Virus record (IMG/VR): IMGVR_UViG_3300025913_000114
Span: 1-21,725 of that record
Source: a virus
Reading direction: 5' to 3' (one strand)
Length of the DNA: 21,725 nt
The notes under the pieces are model-generated. The model saw only the letters and a list, made by a program, of their open reading frames with translations. It searched no databases and was not told where the DNA came from. The position numbers and the translations under genes are program-made. This document shows positions 513 to 21,725 of the stretch, piece by piece (position 1 is the first letter of the stretch; every line of letters starts with the position of its first letter).

Positions 513-2223
513 GCGCCAAGATCGGTACGACCCCAGGGAGCTGCGCCGCCTCAAGATCAGCCCAGAGGTCGGCTGGTACCTGTACAGCCGCGGGATCCCG
601 TTGCCGGAGTATCCGCCGCGGTTCAAGACCCCCGAGCCGCGCCGATTGGCCGGTGCGCGGTTCGACCCTGAGCGCGTCGACCGCGTGCTGGCCGCATTCA
701 AGCAGCTGCGCCACACGCAAGGGCAGTGGGCCGGCCGCCCGCTGACGCCGGACCCGTGGCAGGTCGCGTACATCCTGGCGCCGGTCTACGGATGGGTCCG
801 GCTCAACGACTCCGGGCACTGGGCCCGCATCGCCCGCACCGAGTACGTGGAGCTGCCGCGCAAGAACGGCAAGACCACGATCTCCGGTGGCCAGGCCTGC
901 TACCTGATGGGCGCCGACGGCGAGAACGGCGCCCAGGTCATCGCCGCCGCGGCGTCCAAGCCTCAGGCCCGGTTCTGCTTCGACCCAATCAAGCTAGTCG
1001 CGCAGAAAAGCCCAGGGCTGAAGAAGAACGTCCGAGTGATGCGGGACCGGATCCTTCACCCGAAGTCCGGCTCCTACTTCGAGGTCGTCTCCAGCCTTGC
1101 CGACCTGATCCACGGCGCCAACATCCACGGCGGCGTCATCGACGAACTGCACGTGCACAAGACCGGCGACCTGGTCGAAGCCATCGTCACCGGGACCGGC
1201 GCCCGCGAGCAGCCACTCATCGTGATCATCACGACCGCCGACGACGGCAAGCCGAACAGCGCCTATGCCGAGTACCGGCTGCTCATCGAGCGGCTGGCCC
1301 GCAAAGTGCTGGTCGACTTCAGCGTCTACGGCGTCATCTTCGCCGCCGACCCGAAGGACGACCCGCACGCCGAGGCCACCTGGCGCAAAGCGAACCCCGG
1401 CTACGGGATCAGCCCGACCAAGGAGTTCCTGCAGCAGGCCAGCACCAAGGCGAAGAACAGCCCGGCGCAGCTGGCCAGCTTCCTCCGGCTGCACCTGGGC
1501 ATCCGCACCAAGCAGACCACCAAATTCATCACGCTGGGGTCCTGGGACGCCAACGCTGGCGTCGTCGACGAAGCCGAGCTCGCCGGCAGGACCGCTTTCG
1601 GCGGCCTGGACCTCGCGAGCACCTCCGACGTCACCGCGCTCGCGTGGCTCTTTCCGGCCGAGGACGGCACCTTCGATGCCATCTGGCGCCTGTGGATCCC
1701 CGAGGACAACCTCGACGACCTGGACAAGCGCACCTCCAACAACGCCAGCGTGTGGGTGCGCGACGGCTGGCTGACGCTCACGCCCGGCAACGTCACCGAC
1801 TACGACCACATCGAAGAGCAGATCCGCCGCGACGTAGAGACCTTCGACGTTCAGGACATCGCCTACGACGCCTGGAACGCCAGTCAGCTGGTGAACAACC
1901 TGACCGCCGAGGACGTCCCGATGTCCCCGATCCGCCAGGGCTTCGGGTCGCTGACCGCACCGACCAAGGAGCTGCAGCGGCTGCTGCTCCTGGGCCGCAA
2001 GCGCGGCCCGGTGCTGCGCCACGGCGGCAACCCCGTCCTGCGCTGGATGATCGACAACCTCGCCGTCCAGACCGACGCCGCCGGCAACGTCAAGCCGGCC
2101 AAAGACAAGGGCGCCGACAAGATCGACGGCGTCGCCGCGCTGATCAACGCCATCGAGCGCACCCTGCGCACCGAGGCGCCATCAGAGTCCGTGTACGAGG
2201 AGAGAGGGCCGGTGATCCTGTGA
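484..2223 (+). CDS. terL: Terminase large subunit (ATPase and nuclease)
   Basis: This 579-residue packaging motor would translocate DNA into the prohead using ATP and cut the concatemer. The ATPase domain has a Walker A-like LPRKNGKT (residues 124-131), a Walker B GGVIDELH (216-223) with the catalytic Glu next to Asp, and a coupling motif IITTADDG (248-255). The RNase H-like nuclease domain carries candidate metal-binding aspartates in FGGLDLAST (D376), IAYDAWNASQL (D462) and DKIDGVAAL (D545 or D548). This is the Terminase_1 (HK97/P27-partner) type, commonly associated with cos packaging, and the length is normal. The start lies inside terS. The stop overlaps the next GTG by four bases (GTGA, 2220-2223), suggesting translational coupling. 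Confidence 0.95.
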   Translation: MTTTTTRSAERQDRYDPRELRRLKISPEVGWYLYSRGIPLPEYPPRFKTPEPRRLAGARFDPERVDRVLAAFKQLRHTQGQWAGRPLTPDPWQVAYILAPVYGWVRLNDSGHWARIARTEYVELPRKNGKTTISGGQACYLMGADGENGAQVIAAAASKPQARFCFDPIKLVAQKSPGLKKNVRVMRDRILHPKSGSYFEVVSSLADLIHGANIHGGVIDELHVHKTGDLVEAIVTGTGAREQPLIVIITTADDGKPNSAYAEYRLLIERLARKVLVDFSVYGVIFAADPKDDPHAEATWRKANPGYGISPTKEFLQQASTKAKNSPAQLASFLRLHLGIRTKQTTKFITLGSWDANAGVVDEAELAGRTAFGGLDLASTSDVTALAWLFPAEDGTFDAIWRLWIPEDNLDDLDKRTSNNASVWVRDGWLTLTPGNVTDYDHIEEQIRRDVETFDVQDIAYDAWNASQLVNNLTAEDVPMSPIRQGFGSLTAPTKELQRLLLLGRKRGPVLRHGGNPVLRWMIDNLAVQTDAAGNVKPAKDKGADKIDGVAALINAIERTLRTEAPSESVYEERGPVIL

Positions 2224-2441
2224 AAGGCCGTCGACTCGTTCGCGAGCTGGAGCGCCGGCGCGTGGTTGTTACCACCACCGCGGCGGAGACGTTCGACGGG
2301 ATCCTGCTAGATGCCGACGACGGGCACCTGGTCCTGGTCGACGCCGCGCAGCTGACCCAGACCGGCGACAGCGTCGTTATTGACGGGCAGCTGTGGCTGC
2401 CGACTGACCGCGTCGCCTACCTGCAGCGGCCGGAGGTCTGA
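2220..2441 (+). CDS. Small Sm-like (LSm-fold) candidate protein
   Basis: This is a 73-residue protein starting at the GTG that overlaps the terL stop (GTGA). It ends one base into the portal start, so it is tightly coupled on both sides. A purine-rich stretch (GAGGAGAGAGGG, about 2200-2211) lies upstream. The centre, RRVVVTTTAAETFDGILLD followed by ADDGHLVLVDA, matches the Sm1 pattern: a strand, then hydrophobic-x-G-x-L, an Asp, and hydrophobic strands ending in Asp-Ala. A second strand pair (VVIDGQLWLPTDRVAYLQ) could be the Sm2 half. The position between terminase and portal is recurrent in actinophages, but no function is established that I can cite. The fold is inferred from pattern only. 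It could equally be another small beta-barrel that docks on the portal or terminase. Confidence 0.75.
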   Translation: MKGRRLVRELERRRVVVTTTAAETFDGILLDADDGHLVLVDAAQLTQTGDSVVIDGQLWLPTDRVAYLQRPEV

Positions 2442-4432
2442 TGTTCCTGTCCAACGGCGCCCCGGTCCTGGTCCCGCCCGGCACCCTGGCCGACACCACG
2501 CCGATGTTCGCGGACGCGAACTACTACTCGCGTTCTGCCCTCGAGCTCACCGGCCGCATGGCGGCCTACGGGCAGCTGTACCGCAAGCAGTTATGGGTCG
2601 GCTCGATCGTGCGCAAGCTGGCCCGCTCCACCGCCCGGCTGAACCTGGACCTGCGCGAATCCTCGGATCCGCAGGCCGGCCTCGACACCGTCTCACCGCT
2701 GGCGCAGCTACTGGCCAGGCCGAACGACCGCTTCGACCCGTTCAAGCTCTGGTTTTGGACCAGCGCCACATACGACGTCTACGGCGAGACGTTCTGGCTG
2801 AAGCTGCGCGACCTGGACAACGTCGTGCGCGAGCTGCATCCGATGCACCCGACCAACGTGGTCGTGTACCGGGACTACAAGGGCGAGCTCGGACCGCCCG
2901 GCGGCATCTGGTACATCTACACCTCCGGCGTGCGGTCAGTGAGCCTGCTGCCACCGATCCCGGCCGCCGACGTCGTGCCGTTCACGTCCTACAACCCCGA
3001 CGACACCGAGCGCGGCGTATCCAACCTCGAAGGCCTGCGGGAGACGCTGCTCGCCGAGGACGCCATGCGCCGCGCCTCGGCCAGCTTCTGGCGTCACGGC
3101 GCCCGGCCGGCGATGGTCCTGAAGACCGACAAGAAGCTGACCGACCCTGCGATCAAGCGGCTCAAGTCCCGCATCGACGATGCACACGGCGGCGCCGACA
3201 ACATGGGCGGGACCCTGGTCCTGGAGGACGGCCTCGACGTCACCCCGATGCAGCTGAACGCCGAGGAGCTGCAGTACATCGAGAGCAGGAAGATCAATCG
3301 CGAGGAGGTGTGCGCCGCCTACGACGTCCCGCCGCCGGTCGTGCACATCCTCGACAAAGCCACGTTCTCCAACATCACCGAGCAGATGCGGTCGATGTAC
3401 CGGGACACGATGGCGCCGCGGCTGGAAGAGCTCGAGTCGATCATCAAGCACCACCTGGTCCCGGACTTCGGTGGCAGCCAGGTCCCGCGGTTCAACCTGG
3501 ATGAGGTGCTCCGCGGGGACTTCGAGACCCGCGCCGAGGCAGCGGTAAAACTGGTCACCGGCGCCGTCATGAAGCCGGCCGAGGCCAGGCCCATGTTCAA
3601 CCTGCCGCCGGCCGGCCCCGAGGCGGACAAGCTCTACGCCAACCAGGCCACCCAGCCCCTGGGAACCCCGGTCGGCGGGGCGCAGCCGGGCGCGCTGCCC
3701 GAGGCGCGGCCGCCGCTGGCGATCGAGGGCCCGCGGCCGGACGCGGTCCGCGCCGAGCGCTCCATGATGGGCCGCCTCGGCGCTGCCAAGACAGCCGGCG
3801 CCGACCTGCGCGCCCAGCTGGTCGCCGCGCACGCCGCGCAGCTGCGCAAGGCCTTCGCCGCGCAGCGCGCCGATGCCATGGCCGCCGCCTCCCGCAAAGC
3901 CGCGGCGCCGTTCAACGCCCAGACCTGGGATGTGGCCCTAGCCGATCTTCTGGAGGGGCTGGCCACGGCGACCGCGAAGCTGATGGGCGGCGAGACCGCG
4001 CAGTCGCTCGGCGGAAGCTTCGACGTCGGCACGATGGCCGACTGGATCCGCACCAACGCAACCGTCTCCGCGCAGCGGATCAACACCACCACGCTGGACC
4101 AGCTCGCTGACGCCCTGGAAGACGCCACCGACCCGGCGGCCGCCATCGCGCAGGTCTACGACGTGCTCACCGGCTCGCGCTCCGAGCAGATCGCGAACAC
4201 CCGGGTCGCTGTCGTCGGCGGCAAGGCCCGGCGTACCTCCGCCGCGCAGAACGGCGCCACCACCAAGACGTGGGTGACCGGGACCAATCCGCGGCCCGAC
4301 CATGCCGCCGTCGCCGGCGAGACCGTCGCCCTGGGGCAGCGGTTCTCCAACGGGATGGACGGCCCCGGCGACCCGGCCGGCGGCGCCGATGAGGTCGCCG
4401 GGTGCAACTGCGACCTGGCATTCAGCAGATGA
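2441..4432 (+). CDS. Portal protein fused to MuF-like head morphogenesis domain
   Basis: This 663-residue protein is longer than an ordinary HK97-family portal (about 400-500). Residues 1-400 are the portal: LWVGSIVRKLARSTA near 51, YDVYGETFWLKL (111-122), a loop ending in FTSYNPDD, RASASFWRHGARPAMVL (211-227), and REEVCAAYDVPPPVV (287-301), a hallmark of HK97 portals. It would form the dodecameric DNA gate at one capsid vertex. An Ala/Pro linker (about 401-440) and an alanine-rich helical region follow. The last 60 residues are typical of the SPP1 gp7/Mu gpF C-terminus: KTW (W611), RPDH (R618, H621), G626, RFSNG, GPGDPAGG and a closing CNC (655-657). This fusion would place a minor head protein at the portal. 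The end overlaps an ATG at 4429. Confidence 0.92.
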   Translation: MFLSNGAPVLVPPGTLADTTPMFADANYYSRSALELTGRMAAYGQLYRKQLWVGSIVRKLARSTARLNLDLRESSDPQAGLDTVSPLAQLLARPNDRFDPFKLWFWTSATYDVYGETFWLKLRDLDNVVRELHPMHPTNVVVYRDYKGELGPPGGIWYIYTSGVRSVSLLPPIPAADVVPFTSYNPDDTERGVSNLEGLRETLLAEDAMRRASASFWRHGARPAMVLKTDKKLTDPAIKRLKSRIDDAHGGADNMGGTLVLEDGLDVTPMQLNAEELQYIESRKINREEVCAAYDVPPPVVHILDKATFSNITEQMRSMYRDTMAPRLEELESIIKHHLVPDFGGSQVPRFNLDEVLRGDFETRAEAAVKLVTGAVMKPAEARPMFNLPPAGPEADKLYANQATQPLGTPVGGAQPGALPEARPPLAIEGPRPDAVRAERSMMGRLGAAKTAGADLRAQLVAAHAAQLRKAFAAQRADAMAAASRKAAAPFNAQTWDVALADLLEGLATATAKLMGGETAQSLGGSFDVGTMADWIRTNATVSAQRINTTTLDQLADALEDATDPAAAIAQVYDVLTGSRSEQIANTRVAVVGGKARRTSAAQNGATTKTWVTGTNPRPDHAAVAGETVALGQRFSNGMDGPGDPAGGADEVAGCNCDLAFSR

Positions 4433-4440
4433 GGAGAGCC

Positions 4441-5388
4441 ATGAGGACCACGGTTGTCCAGAAGGACGCCATCGCCGCGATCACCCCGGGCGACGATGAC
4501 GAAGGCTCGCCGAACGGCTCCTTCCACATCATCTTGTCGACCGCGGCCAAGGACCGCGACGGCGAGGAGCTGCAGCCCGGCGAGTGGGAACAGCCGCTAC
4601 CGGACCACATCACCATGGACATGGACCACGGCATGTCCGTGGCCACTACCGTCGGATCCGGCACGCCGACCCTAGAGAACGGGCAGCTGCACGTCCGCGG
4701 CACCTACGCCAGCATCCCGCGCGCGCAGGAAGTCCGGGCCCTGGTCGGTGAAGGCCATATCAAGACCACCTCGGTCGCGTTCCTGCGCAAGACCACCTCG
4801 GACGCCAAGGGCGCCAAGACCACCCGCCGCGAGCTCCTCAACGGCGCGTTCGTCGCGGTGCCCGCGAACCCCGAGGCGCTGGTGCTGGCCAGCAAGGCAG
4901 CCACGGCCGCCAAGGAAGGCCGGCGCAACTCCGCTGCCGACCACGCCTCGATCCAGGGCATCCACGACTACGCCACGGCCCTCGGCGCCTACTGCAACGA
5001 CGGCAAGGCCGCGGCCGCCGACGGACGCAAGGACGCTGACACCGAGCAGGACGACGACCCGGGCACCCTGGCCCAAGGCGTCGACGCCGCCATCGATGAG
5101 GCGATCGACCTGTTCGCGCAGGTCGACGCCACCACACTTCCCGAGCCGGTACAGCAGGCCATCGCGCTGATCACCAGCGCCGACGCCACGATCGACAACC
5201 TGCTGGCCGCGCTCGGGGTAGCCGATCCGGACGAGACCGAGGATCAGACCGCCGGAGCCGACGACGCCGCCAAGGCCGCGCAGTCCGCTCCCGCCGTCGA
5301 CGTCGCCGCCCTGGCCGATCGCATGAAGGCAACCCGCGCCCGCGCGCTCGCCGCGCTGGCCGCCGCTTACGAGAAGACAGGACACTGA
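4441..5388 (+). CDS. Prohead (maturation) protease, HK97 gp4-like, with long C-terminal extension
   Basis: This 315-residue serine protease would cleave the delta domain of the capsid protein during prohead maturation. The protease core spans residues 1-150. The likely catalytic His is H63 (MDMDHGMS), the Ser is S111 (IKTTSVAF), and a conserved acidic position lies in RRELLNGAFVAVPANPEA (130-147). Residues about 165-186 (HASIQGIHDYATALGAYC) form a segment often seen after the protease core in actinophages. The remaining, roughly 130-residue tail is Ala/Asp-rich and may help assembly or be disordered. I chose ATG 4441 over 4402 and 4429 because GAGGAG at 4431-4436 sits at the right distance, and the other starts add only residues inside the portal gene. 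Confidence 0.92.
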   Translation: MRTTVVQKDAIAAITPGDDDEGSPNGSFHIILSTAAKDRDGEELQPGEWEQPLPDHITMDMDHGMSVATTVGSGTPTLENGQLHVRGTYASIPRAQEVRALVGEGHIKTTSVAFLRKTTSDAKGAKTTRRELLNGAFVAVPANPEALVLASKAATAAKEGRRNSAADHASIQGIHDYATALGAYCNDGKAAAADGRKDADTEQDDDPGTLAQGVDAAIDEAIDLFAQVDATTLPEPVQQAIALITSADATIDNLLAALGVADPDETEDQTAGADDAAKAAQSAPAVDVAALADRMKATRARALAALAAAYEKTGH

Positions 5389-5389
5389 T

Positions 5390-6631
5390 ATGCCATCACT
5401 GCTGGAGGCCAAGGAGAGCGTCAAGAAGCTCTCCCTGCAGGCCCTGGAGGTCGTCGAATCGACGACCATGACGCCGTCCGAGCAGAAGGACGCGCTCGAC
5501 CGGATTGAGGAAGACCTCGAGAAGGCGCAGAAGGACGTCGCGAACCTCACCCACATCGAGGAGAAGCGCGCGAAGTTTATGGCCGCATCCGGCGGCGACC
5601 TGGCCGCGGCCGCCGAGGCCAAAAGGAAGGCGACGCTGAAGAGCCTCGGCGAGCAGTTCGTCGAATCCGACGGCTACAAGAACCAGCTCAAGCGCGGCGG
5701 GTTCAAGGGAAGCTCCTTCTGGTCCACCGGCGACGTCGAGCTGAAGACGACCCTGACCGAAGGTACGGTCGCCAGCCCCGGCCCCGGTTTCGCACCTATC
5801 GCCACACCGGTGGTGCTCCCGGGCGTCGTGGACATCAAGTTCCAGCCGCTGGTCATCGCCGACCTGATCCCGCAGGGCGCCACCACCAGCACCCTGATTC
5901 GGTACCTGGTCGAGACCGCGGTCACCAACGCCGCGGCCGCCACCGCCGAAGGCGGCGCCTACCCCGAGTCGGCGATCGCGTTCGACAAGGTCGACGAGAC
6001 CCTGCACAAGATCGACACGATCCTGCCGGTGTCCGATGAGATGCTCGAGGACTGGCTGCAGACCCAGTCCTACATCAACGCCCGGCTGCAGCTGTTCATC
6101 AACCTCAAGGAGCAGTCCCAGCTGCTCGCCGGCGACGGCACCGGCGCCAACCTGCTCGGCCTGCTCAACCGGACCGGCCTGGCCACCGCCATCCCCAAGG
6201 CCGGCAACGGTGGTTCCATCCCGGCCTCCGACAACGACATGGACGCGATCTACCGGCAGATCACTCAGATCCGCATCACGTCCTTCATGGAGCCCGACGC
6301 CTCCGTGATCGACCCGATTTCCTGGCAGAACATCCTGCTGGCCAAGAACAGCCAGGGGTTCTACTACGCGAACGGGCCTTTCGTGTCCGAGGCCGACTCG
6401 ATGCTGTGGGGCAAGAAGGTCGTCCACACACCGGCTATGAGCGCCGGAACTGCCCTGGTCGGCGCTTTCGGCCAGGCCGCGCAGATCTTCCGCAAGGGCG
6501 GCATCACCGTTGAGGCCAGCAACAGCCACAACGACAACTTCGCCAAGGGCATCGTGTCCATCCGCGCCGAGAAGCGCCTGGCCCTAGCCGTCTACCGGCC
6601 CGGGGCTTTCGGCGAGGTCACCGGCCTGTAG
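5390..6631 (+). CDS. Major capsid protein, HK97 gp5 fold
   Basis: This 413-residue protein builds the icosahedral shell. Residues 1-85 form a charged coiled coil (ESVKKLSLQALEVVES, then EQKDALDRIEEDLEKAQKD) that corresponds to the HK97 delta domain. It acts as an internal scaffold and is removed by the protease encoded just upstream, and no separate scaffold gene is visible. The cleavage site is probably between residues about 85 and 120. The mature part has the expected order: an E-loop region rich in Gly/Pro (about 125-140), DLIPQGATTST, AEGGAYPES, LPVSDEMLEDW, the spine helix, LLAGDGTGANLLGLL, and the C-terminal ASVIDPISWQNILLAKNS and HNDNFAKGIVSIRAEKRL. The start follows the protease stop by one base. 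Confidence 0.96.
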   Translation: MPSLLEAKESVKKLSLQALEVVESTTMTPSEQKDALDRIEEDLEKAQKDVANLTHIEEKRAKFMAASGGDLAAAAEAKRKATLKSLGEQFVESDGYKNQLKRGGFKGSSFWSTGDVELKTTLTEGTVASPGPGFAPIATPVVLPGVVDIKFQPLVIADLIPQGATTSTLIRYLVETAVTNAAAATAEGGAYPESAIAFDKVDETLHKIDTILPVSDEMLEDWLQTQSYINARLQLFINLKEQSQLLAGDGTGANLLGLLNRTGLATAIPKAGNGGSIPASDNDMDAIYRQITQIRITSFMEPDASVIDPISWQNILLAKNSQGFYYANGPFVSEADSMLWGKKVVHTPAMSAGTALVGAFGQAAQIFRKGGITVEASNSHNDNFAKGIVSIRAEKRLALAVYRPGAFGEVTGL

Positions 6632-6633
6632 AC

Positions 6634-6676
6634 CGATCCGGCCGCGGCCGCTACCTACCCGGCCGCGGCCGGATCG
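6634..6676 (+). terminator. Perfect 17-bp hairpin after the capsid gene
   Basis: Arms 6634-6650 and 6660-6676 are perfectly complementary (17 bp, nearly all G and C) around a 9-base loop, three bases after the capsid stop. No uridine run follows (GCACCATCCCC), so it could be a U-less actinobacterial terminator, a partial attenuator that lowers expression of the neck genes, or a 3' stabiliser for the capsid mRNA. Confidence 0.8.
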
Positions 6677-15226: not shown

Positions 15227-16198
15227 ATGACCACAGTGCGGACCTTCGCCATCGCCACCACCAGCGACTCCGCCGAGGACTATCGCCTCGTCGACAGCGG
15301 GCTGCTGGTGCCCGTCTCGGCGCTGAACGCCCGCAGTGGCGTCACGTCGACCCCCACACTGACCGGCACCGGCAACTTCACCTGCAACGTCGGCGCCTTC
15401 ACCGCGGCCATCGACGGCACCTCGAACGCCTTGCAGGGCGTCTACCGGATCGCGGTCGACGGCGCCACACCGATCACCATCAATGCGGCGTCCACCCAGG
15501 CCCGCATCGACCTGATTTACGCGCAGATCCTCGACCAGGCGTACGACGGCTCAGGCCTCGCCAAAGGCCAGGTGCAATACCTCGCCGGCACCCCCGGATC
15601 CGGCTCCGCCCCCGCCACGCCCGCCAACGCCGTCGCGCTCTTCACGGTGCCCGTCGCGGCGAACGCCACGTCCGTCGTGTTCGCCAATGCCACCGCGGTG
15701 TTCCCCTACACCGCGGCGGTCGGCGGGATCGTCCCGGTGCGCTCGGCCAGCGACAAGCCCCCCGCGGCGTCCGGCGTGCAGTACCGTCACCGCCTGGACG
15801 TCAGCGCCAGCAGCGGCGCCTCGCCGCTGGAGTGGTCGACCGACGGCGTCACCTACACCTCGGCCTACGACCCGAACGCCGCCTACGGCACGTGGACCGC
15901 GACCACGGTCGGCAGCCTGTTCAATGCCTCCATCACACCTCAGTACCGCACCGCGCCGGGCAACAAGGTCGAGCTGCGTGGCTCCATCGTGACCAACGCC
16001 AGCGTCGCCGACAACAACGGCGTGATCGGCGGCCTGCCTATCCCGGCCTCGTCCAGAGGGATGCGGCCGGCGATCAACGGATCGCCGGATTTCATGCTGT
16101 TCATCCAAAACGGCACGGCCATCGCCGCCAACAGGGGTGGCAACACACTGCCTATCAGCACCGTGATTTACCTTGACGGTCTGTCCTACACGCTCTGA
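15227..16198 (+). CDS. Tail fibre/baseplate protein, candidate receptor-binding
   Basis: This is a 323-residue protein behind AGGAG (15213-15217). Residues 1-165 follow a domain common in actinophage tail tips: YRLVDSGLLVPVSALNARSG, FTCNVGAFTAAIDGTSNALQ, ASTQARIDLIYAQILDQAYD, VQYLAGTPGSGSAPATPANA and VALFTVPVAANATSV. A linker (VRSASDKPPAASGVQYRHRL) joins it to a C-terminal beta domain (WTATTVGSLFNASITPQYRT, VELRGSIVTNASV, LPIPASSRGMRPAING) that resembles fibre-tip domains. This C-terminal domain is the best candidate in the window for contacting the host surface, together with the protein at 17276. The stop and the next ATG overlap by one base (TGATG). Confidence 0.82.
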   Translation: MTTVRTFAIATTSDSAEDYRLVDSGLLVPVSALNARSGVTSTPTLTGTGNFTCNVGAFTAAIDGTSNALQGVYRIAVDGATPITINAASTQARIDLIYAQILDQAYDGSGLAKGQVQYLAGTPGSGSAPATPANAVALFTVPVAANATSVVFANATAVFPYTAAVGGIVPVRSASDKPPAASGVQYRHRLDVSASSGASPLEWSTDGVTYTSAYDPNAAYGTWTATTVGSLFNASITPQYRTAPGNKVELRGSIVTNASVADNNGVIGGLPIPASSRGMRPAINGSPDFMLFIQNGTAIAANRGGNTLPISTVIYLDGLSYTL

Positions 16199-17268
16199 TG
16201 GATGCCCAATACCGCGTCCGGTTCGCCGGCACGCTCTCCGACCAGCTGATCGGCGACTTCCCCTTCGAAGGAACCAGCTTCGAGGCACGCATCGGCGCCG
16301 CCGGCGCGATGTCAGGCAACATCCCGATCGCCCGCGGCGACAGCACATTCGGTGCCCGGGTCGCCGCCATCCATGGATCCGCAGCGACCACCGCCTACGT
16401 CTACCGCAACGGCGTGCCGTGGTGGGGCGGCCCGGTCTGGACCAAGACCCTGGCCAGCGACGAAAACGGTGGTCGCTGCGGATCCATGGATGCCGCCACG
16501 TTCGAGTCCTATCTCGACCGGGTCCTGCTCGCCACGGACCTGCCCGCGTTGCCCGGCACCGACCAGATGGACATCGCCAGGTCGTTCATCAACCACATGC
16601 AGTCCGACCCGCACGCCAATGTGGGCCTGACCTGCGACACCATCCAGTCGGGCATCATCCGCGACCGTGTCCTCTACGCCGCTGCGAGCCGGCCGTCATA
16701 CCTCAAGATGCTGAGCGACTTGGCCGCGCTCGACCAGGGCTTCGAATTCGTCACCCAGGTCCTCACCGACCCCACCACCGGCGCGCGCATGCGGCGCCTG
16801 CGCCTGGGCTACCCGATCCTGTCCAGCGGCGTCACCCACCGCATCAGCAGACCAGGCGCGATCCTCAGCTACAGCTTCCCCGAGGACGGCACCCGGGCCG
16901 CTACCTCCCTGATGGCCACCGGCAGCGGCGCCAACAGCTCCGTCCACACCAACGCCGGCGCCTACGCCGCCGGCTACCCCAGGACGGACCTCACCACGTC
17001 GTACAGCTCCATCACCGACATCGCCACCCTGGAGGCGCACGCGACTGCCGACCTGGCTTTGGTCGCGCCGCCGTTCGGAGTGCCCGCGGTGCGTGTCCGC
17101 CTGGACGCAACGGACATCACGCCTCAGTGCCTCGGCGACTCGGTGCGGATCAGCATCGTCGACGAGCTCTTCCCGGCCGGCGTCACCGCGACCTACCGGC
17201 TGGTCGGCATGACCGTCGCGCCCGAGGAGCGCGGCCGGTACGAGACCTGCGACCTGATCCTGAACTGA
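16198..17268 (+). CDS. Tail-associated minor tail protein (Gp37/Tal N-terminal-like)
   Basis: This 356-residue protein belongs to the tail tip hub group. The N-terminal part (FEARIGAAGAMSGNIPIARG) and a conserved segment YVYRNGVPWWGGPVWTK (residues 68-84), then FESYLDRVLLATDL (102-115), match actinophage minor tail proteins that follow Dit. The middle (DLAALDQGFEFVTQV, MRRLRLGYPIL) and the C-terminus (VRVRLDATDITPQCLGDSVR, then YRLVGMTVAPEERGRYETCD) complete the family pattern. It should form the cone under the Dit ring. It has no recognisable wall hydrolase domain. Codons 58-98 are bounded by the perfect inverted repeat described separately, which is unusual for a structural gene. Confidence 0.85.
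   Translation: MDAQYRVRFAGTLSDQLIGDFPFEGTSFEARIGAAGAMSGNIPIARGDSTFGARVAAIHGSAATTAYVYRNGVPWWGGPVWTKTLASDENGGRCGSMDAATFESYLDRVLLATDLPALPGTDQMDIARSFINHMQSDPHANVGLTCDTIQSGIIRDRVLYAAASRPSYLKMLSDLAALDQGFEFVTQVLTDPTTGARMRRLRLGYPILSSGVTHRISRPGAILSYSFPEDGTRAATSLMATGSGANSSVHTNAGAYAAGYPRTDLTTSYSSITDIATLEAHATADLALVAPPFGVPAVRVRLDATDITPQCLGDSVRISIVDELFPAGVTATYRLVGMTVAPEERGRYETCDLILN
16368..16492. repeat. Perfect 26-bp inverted repeat inside a tail gene
   Basis: Arms 16368-16393 and 16467-16492 are exact reverse complements, separated by 73 bases. They encode IHGSAATT (residues 58-65) and GGRCGSMD (91-98). The codon phase is mirrored exactly, so if the 125-base segment were flipped the frame would remain open with a different middle (beginning VFVAGQGLGP). 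In mRNA the arms could form a 26-bp stem with a large loop. Confidence 0.93.
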
Positions 17269-20878: not shown

Positions 20879-21220
20879 GTGGACCTCACCACGGTCCTGT
20901 CCGCCATGGGCGGCGTCGGAATGCTGACTTTCCTGCAGCAGGCCGTCGGTCTGTACCGGGAGGAGAGGCGCAAAACCTCGGCCGAGGCTCGCGCCCAGGC
21001 CGCCGCGCCCGTGACTCAGCAGTCGCTGATGATGGGCATGGCCGACCAGAATTCCAGCATCCAGCAGCGTACGATCGCTGCCCTCGAAGACCAGCTCGAC
21101 AAAGCGCTCCGCGACAACGCGACCCTGCGCCAGGATCAAGAAACCCGAGAGCGCCTCATCGCGCGCCTCTCCATCCGAATCGGCCAGCTCGAGTCCCAAG
21201 CCGGTCAGAAAGACCCATAG
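20879..21220 (+). CDS. Small coiled-coil protein at the end of the late operon
   Basis: This is a 113-residue protein starting at GTG 20879 behind a strong AGGAGG (20867-20872) that overlaps the previous stop codon. Residues 1-25 form a mildly hydrophobic stretch (VLSAMGGVGMLTFLQQAVGL) that could be a membrane anchor. Residues 26-60 are basic then polar, and 62-107 form a good coiled coil (IAALEDQLDKALRDNATLRQ, RERLIARLSIRIGQLESQ). This layout recalls small membrane-anchored coiled-coil proteins such as inner spanins, but the anchor is weak and Gram-positive phages usually lack spanins. The function is unknown. A lysis or holin-associated role follows from position only. Confidence 0.8.
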   Translation: MDLTTVLSAMGGVGMLTFLQQAVGLYREERRKTSAEARAQAAAPVTQQSLMMGMADQNSSIQQRTIAALEDQLDKALRDNATLRQDQETRERLIARLSIRIGQLESQAGQKDP

Positions 21221-21222
21221 CC

Positions 21223-21251
21223 GCGGCCCCGCCCATCCAGGGCGGGGCCGC
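21223..21251 (+). terminator. Rho-independent terminator closing the late operon
   Basis: Arms 21223-21234 and 21240-21251 form a perfect 12-bp GC stem with a 5-base loop (ATCCA), followed by TTTCGT. It begins two bases after the last plus-strand stop and lies five bases from the end of the convergent minus-strand gene, which it may also shield from read-through. Confidence 0.9.
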
Positions 21252-21256
21252 TTTCG

Positions 21257-21725
21257 TCATGTCTGGGGCACGACCACCTGGCGCCCGCGCTTCCATCGCG
21301 TCAGCACAGCCTCGTGGCCCACCTGCTCGCCAGTCGACGGATTCAACTGGAAGCGCCCGAAGACGGTTCGCACGTCTAGAGTCACCAGCTCCTGCCAGAG
21401 CCGTCCTGCATCTACGGAGCCCGCCGATCGCGCGGAGGCCGTAGCGATCACTCCCGCCGCGTAGGCCTGGACGGCCGGATAGTCGGGCCCGGCGCCGAAG
21501 CGACGCCCCCACTCGGCGAGGAAGGCGGTTTCGTCTATCCCGAGATCCACCTCGGCGTGCGCACCGGCCGCCCACTGGCCGATGCCGAGTACCCCGTCAG
21601 GCGCCTCAACATCTCGTGCGAACTCTCTGATGCCAGCGGCAACGGAGCACACAAGCCGCGGCGGAGTGTCCAGCCTCTGAGCAGCGAGGACCGTCGCGAC
21701 GTCATCCTCGTAGACGCCGGCGCTG
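21257..21725 (-). CDS. ABC transporter substrate-binding protein (branched-chain amino-acid type), partial
   Basis: This minus-strand gene ends at 21257 and is open to the window edge, so only its C-terminal 156 codons are visible. Translation of the last 73 bases shows no stop and continues the protein upstream of the apparent GTG at 21652 (AGVYEDDVATVLAAQRLDTP). The conserved tail is that of periplasmic-binding-protein family 6: GVLGIGQWAAGAHAEVDLG, FLAEWGRRFGAGPDYPAVQA, YAAGVIATASARSAGSVDAG, LVTLDVRTVFGRFQLNPSTG and EQVGHEAVLTRWKRGRQVVV. Such proteins capture amino acids or related solutes outside the cell for import, usually as lipoproteins. It is a typical chromosomal gene and not a phage one, so it marks host DNA beside the prophage. 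The signal peptide and lipobox would be outside the window. Confidence 0.8.
   Translation of the reverse strand, partial: SAGVYEDDVATVLAAQRLDTPPRLVCSVAAGIREFARDVEAPDGVLGIGQWAAGAHAEVDLGIDETAFLAEWGRRFGAGPDYPAVQAYAAGVIATASARSAGSVDAGRLWQELVTLDVRTVFGRFQLNPSTGEQVGHEAVLTRWKRGRQVVVPQT

Follow-up and report, generated by a model that had tools for sequence, protein, structure and literature searches.

The inverted repeat and the gene that contains it

The stretch of DNA analysed here, which we refer to as the window, is a virus record of 21,725 bases from IMG/VR. The contig is incomplete and carries the structural genes of a tailed phage: the terminase, portal, protease, capsid, head closure, major tail protein, tape measure and minor tail proteins, followed by a GDSL lipase-like gene and a GH25 lysozyme. 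At the end of the window (21220-21725), the last gene on the + strand is followed by a hairpin that is rich in GC and has a short run of T, and an ORF on the opposite strand (21257-21652) gives a weak, below-cut-off match to a periplasmic binding protein; this end is possibly host DNA at the edge of a prophage.

One of the minor tail genes (ORF 16198-17268) encloses both arms of a perfect inverted repeat: the sequence CATCCATGGATCCGCAGCGACCACCG at 16368-16393 is followed, after a spacer of 73 nt, by its exact reverse complement at 16467-16492, each arm being 26 nt long. When mismatches are allowed, the inverted match grows to 37 nt at 89%. It is the sole perfect inverted repeat longer than 17 nt, with a spacer of at most 300, in the whole window. 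The longest inverted repeats in 30 random windows (first-order Markov, with the dinucleotide make-up kept) measure 11-14 nt, and arms as long as the observed ones are expected about 4e-8 times in the window; the original prediction, that two such arms are very unlikely by chance and lie within a coding gene, is borne out. A shorter perfect inverted repeat, of 17 bp with a spacer of 9 nt, occurs at 6634-6676, just past the stop of the capsid gene, and is probably an intergenic regulatory or terminator hairpin.

The protein that is encoded by the repeat-bearing gene belongs to phrog_1885 and the gp27-like hub proteins, as found both by the profile match and by the hub fold of its predicted structure. 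The AlphaFold model (pLDDT 92.5) matches gp44 of phage Mu (1wru; TM-score 0.64/0.70, E 8.8e-14), as well as the MuSo2 tail protein and gp27-like parts of injection systems. The features of the locus are collected in Table 1.

Table 1. Positions in the window of the repeat-bearing gene, the two arms of the repeat and the short elements between and within them.
Feature	Position	Strand	Remarks
Minor tail protein, baseplate-hub-like, 356 aa; repeat-bearing gene	16198..17268	+	phrog_1885, E 1.8e-52; hub fold
Left arm, source copy, probably the older one	16368..16393	+	Residues 58-65; IHGSAAT, compared with IRGSGAT in L014/L171
Spacer of 73 nt, encoding YVYRNGVPWWGGPVWTKTLASDEN, in the family's normal orientation	16394..16466	+	Near-invariant W/G residues
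CGTC, half of a 4-nt pairing inside the spacer	16398..16401	+	Occurs in L015 and L170
GACG, other half of the spacer pairing	16459..16462	+	Occurs in all four close relatives
CGG microhomology, putative first switch point	16467..16469	+	GG conserved; C is G in relatives
Right arm, exact reverse complement of the left arm, probably derived	16467..16492	-	Family residues lost
Putative replaced tract, 22 nt, residues 92-98 (GRCGSMD)	16470..16491	+	Largest identity drop in the gene

Comparison of the two arms with related genes

Related genes were collected with a profile (A1) built from phage homologs, which returned 75 viral loci and 80 loci from bacterial genomes. The closest relatives, L014, L015, L171 and L170, are 55-63% identical to the window protein, and no relative above 63% protein identity was found in the searches with the window protein alone, with the profile or with neighbouring proteins: the upstream neighbour returned no relatives, while the GH25 protein returned loci none of which adds a copy of the hub gene. 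Neither the exact left arm nor the exact spacer occurs in any other viral contig searched. A contig of 4.9 kb from another record (L205) is 99.9% identical to window positions 818-5722, i.e. the same virus has been recovered twice, to judge by the sequence, but the tail region is missing from it.

The repeat is missing from the four close relatives and from about 140 more distant homologs: none of the 145 distinct homologs has an exact inverted repeat longer than 16 nt in this gene, and the arms of the longest one, of 16 nt, lie far apart. At the positions that correspond to the 26-nt arms, 8-12 of the 26 bases pair in the relatives, where chance would give 7.4 +/- 2.4; because this pairing is near chance, the pairing in the window has probably been created rather than preserved, which suggests that the repeat arose anew more than that an old repeat was corrected.

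The two arms differ in how they compare with the relatives. In the region of the left arm, the window has AAIHGSAATTAYVYRNG, L014 and L171 have IRGSGATAMYIYRGG, and L015 has VKSSGGSAVYVYRNG; the left arm is 67% identical to L014/L171 in nucleotides, where the gene average is 69-72%, and 62% identical in amino acids. In the region of the right arm, the window has ENGGRCGSMDAATFESY, whereas the four close relatives share the pattern G-x-P-x-[VM]-x-I-[GS]-A-[GS]-T; the right tract is 33/33/29/54% identical to the four in nucleotides and 12% in amino acids, while the four are 54-75% identical to each other in nucleotides over the same tract. For three of the four, nucleotide similarity at 16470-16491 is near chance. 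When the drop in nucleotide identity between the window and a relative is ranked in windows of eight codons (n = 349), the right arm occupies ranks 1 to 5 and the left arm ranks 44 to 162. In the alignment of 148 proteins, the right segment of the window scores lowest for its fit to the family; at position 95, where 145 of the 147 relatives have A, V, L or M, the window has a glycine.

The surroundings of the right arm have kept their length and their homology. From W81 to F102 the window counts 21 residues, as do all four close relatives, with no gap, and the conserved flanks (D-E-x-G before, A-x-T-F-E after) continue without a gap; flanks and spacer alike are normal in comparison with the relatives. 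The loss of the family residues at the right arm, together with the unchanged length and a left arm that resembles L014/L171, points to a replacement at 16470-16491, where the left arm, as its reverse complement, appears to have taken the place of up to 22 bases without a shift of register. The alignment with close relatives that had been proposed as a check on the repeat therefore gives a direction, in that the left arm is ancestral-like and the right arm departs from the close relatives; the comparison supports an older left arm and a derived right arm of equal length.

Within the left arm, positions 16369-16378 hold a palindrome of 10 bp (ATCCATGGAT), part of which differs from all four close relatives; this palindrome could have originated in an earlier small event.

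A probable template switch as the origin of the right arm

We consider it probable, at roughly four chances in five, that the repeat is the scar of a single template-switch mutation with two jumps, which would have occurred during replication. The arrangement that such a mutation leaves behind is found here in three respects: the derived tract repeats a nearby source in reverse complement (22 nt within the exact 26-nt match), the source is ancestral-like while the differences cluster at the target, where the right arm ranks lowest, and the sequence returns to the original template on both sides. The original prediction had offered a template-switch scar, an invertible cassette and a selected mRNA stem side by side; the comparison with relatives, by which the left arm is the older one, favours the first of these.

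The event may be pictured as follows. The nascent strand would have copied the gene through about position 16469 and would then either have folded back on itself or have switched to the opposite strand, with CGTC/GACG and CCG/CGG as the annealing sites: CGG at 16467-16469 pairs with CCG at 16391-16393, and together with CGTC/GACG, a pairing that exists in L015 and L170 in genes that lack the repeat, it could hold the fold-back. About 22 nt of the left arm would have served as the template for a reverse-complement copy, before synthesis resumed on the original template at the GCC codon (16492), which is conserved, with the length unchanged; residues 92-98 would thereby have been overwritten and a perfect 26-bp hairpin left. 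We infer the number of steps from relatives that are only 55-63% identical in protein. In the structural model, the replaced residues lie in a loop (88-92) and at the start of a strand (93-100), a site where the change may be tolerated; the protein presumably continues to function.

Several observations count against a template switch. The left arm fits the wide family poorly, its segment having the second lowest score of the 148, yet it resembles L014/L171; the prior complementarity is weak, so that the switch would have needed little homology; the residue change is non-conservative, with glycine at the hydrophobic position 95; and the lengths of the arms and of the spacer exceed those of the cases known from yeast.

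Alternative explanations

The repeat could have been produced in the library or in the assembly, by a fold-back chimera or by misassembly of a repeat; the right site would then carry the left arm's reverse complement in the contig and not in the virus itself. The poor fit of the right-arm residues, the worst among the 148 homologs, would agree with such an artefact, and no second record spans the site, L205 being confined to 818-5722. However, the artefact would need two well-placed junctions, an equal length and an open frame, amid flanks and a spacer that are normal, while fold-back chimeras usually have a single junction, beyond which the original sequence is not resumed; an artefact with two junctions, equal length and an intact frame is possible but unlikely, and we regard this explanation as improbable. 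Selection for a hairpin in the mRNA or in single-stranded DNA, for instance for RNase III processing or translation pausing, is still less probable. Folding of the mRNA, which had been proposed as a check, does yield a strong stem (-93.5 kcal/mol, compared with -58.4 +/- 4.1 for shuffled sequences), but a stem of this strength follows automatically from any 26-bp repeat and would thus be a by-product of a template switch; the arms of the relatives pair near chance and the stem is not conserved, so that its absence from the relatives leaves selection for it without support. The search of Rfam gave no match, and no terminator-like site or promoter was found.

That the repeat encloses an invertible cassette, a 73-nt segment flipped by a recombinase to vary the tail protein, is very improbable, although perfect inverted repeats lie within the gene and the segment is open both ways. 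The flipped spacer gives VFVAGQGLGPDRAAPPRHAVAVDV, without a stop, as had been noticed in the original prediction; since any inversion keeps the frame, this is no special support for a switch, and at 67-70% GC some 25 codons without a stop are nothing unusual: an antisense ORF here (16312-16614) runs to 100 aa. The flip would lose the WWGGxxWT motif of the hub-fold protein, which is near-invariant (W76 and G78 in 147/147 relatives, W81 in 146, W75 in 145, G77 in 144 and T82 in 143-146); the present middle does match the conserved sequence of the family, as the original prediction had it (143-147 of 147 at the motif positions), and the suggested variant of the tail tip is not supported, given this motif, a baseplate-hub fold that is not a receptor-binding one, and relatives that have neither the repeat nor the flipped peptide. 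The repeat is absent from the 145 homologs, among which the arms are not conserved, and the right arm is derived rather than a conserved site; among the relatives, which are what the search for the inverted form covered, no 6-mer of the flipped peptide occurs. The annotated genes, which come from a scan of part of the ORFs of an incomplete contig, include no identified recombinase, in line with the earlier remark that no invertase is visible. The segments inverted by the Gin/Hin family are far longer than 73 bp, and a hub protein is not a usual target of phase variation. It is equally improbable that a stem produced by template switching now lets the 73-nt core flip at low frequency, through host recombination or further template switching, as a reversible, inactive allele of the hub.

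Two arms that flank a short centre are also what an inserted small element with terminal inverted repeats of 26 bp would show, but the centre here consists of coding sequence that the family conserves, and the length equals that of the relatives; with such a centre, a transposon-like insertion is ruled out for practical purposes.

Relation to known systems

The template-switch reading has close counterparts in yeast genes, where template switches homogenise the arms of inverted repeats and change several adjacent residues (Abraham and Hazkani-Covo 2021, PMC8604942). There, as here, a cluster of substitutions makes one arm the reverse complement of the other within coding sequence, in frame and with an unchanged spacer; the yeast arms, however, are of 7-16 bp (26 here), the spacers searched are of at most 70 (73 here), at most five residues are changed (seven here), and ancestry is taken from strains, whereas here it is deduced from relatives of 55-63% identity and there was little prior complementarity. 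In RNA genes, perfect hairpins are created by template switching (Monttinen and Loytynoja 2022, PMC8794818): a perfect stem arises in one event by reverse-complement copying of nearby sequence, described by four switch points, as would be the case here; those genes (microRNA, rRNA) are eukaryotic and placed in dense phylogenies, whereas ours is a phage structural gene that lacks one. The classic template-switch systems are the lacZ reporters of E. coli and rIIB of phage T4, as summarised in PMC7202029 (which cites Ripley 1982); the quasipalindrome mutations described in that summary share with our case, as it is pictured above, the fold-back of the nascent strand, bacterial or phage replication and a more perfect inverted repeat as the product, but they start from a clear imperfect repeat, whereas our relatives have only 8-12 of 26 pairs.

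Intragenic inversions have been reported in bacteria (Chanin et al. 2024, as cited in PMC11868660); our literature search on the phrase "intragenic invertons" gave no match. The locus resembles these and the Gin/Hin systems in its inverted repeats and in an arm length close to 26 bp, and differs from them in that no recombinase is identified, the sites are not conserved, the flip loses the core motif and the segment is of 73 bp.

If the template-switch reading is correct, the locus is a clean, large, natural template-switch mutation in a phage structural gene, by which seven adjacent residues were rewritten, probably at once, with the frame intact. The mechanism is an ordinary one, to which nothing new is added; the example is unusually large and clean for a phage structural gene. 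It suggests that phage proteins may change by jumps of several residues, which may pass for positive selection, a misreading that has been argued for multi-residue template-switch changes in yeast (PMC8604942).

A further long inverted repeat has been observed in a related phage contig (L020), where two perfect arms of 28 bp, with a spacer of 53 nt, lie at 4039-4147, directly downstream of ORF 3601-4029 and apparently between genes.
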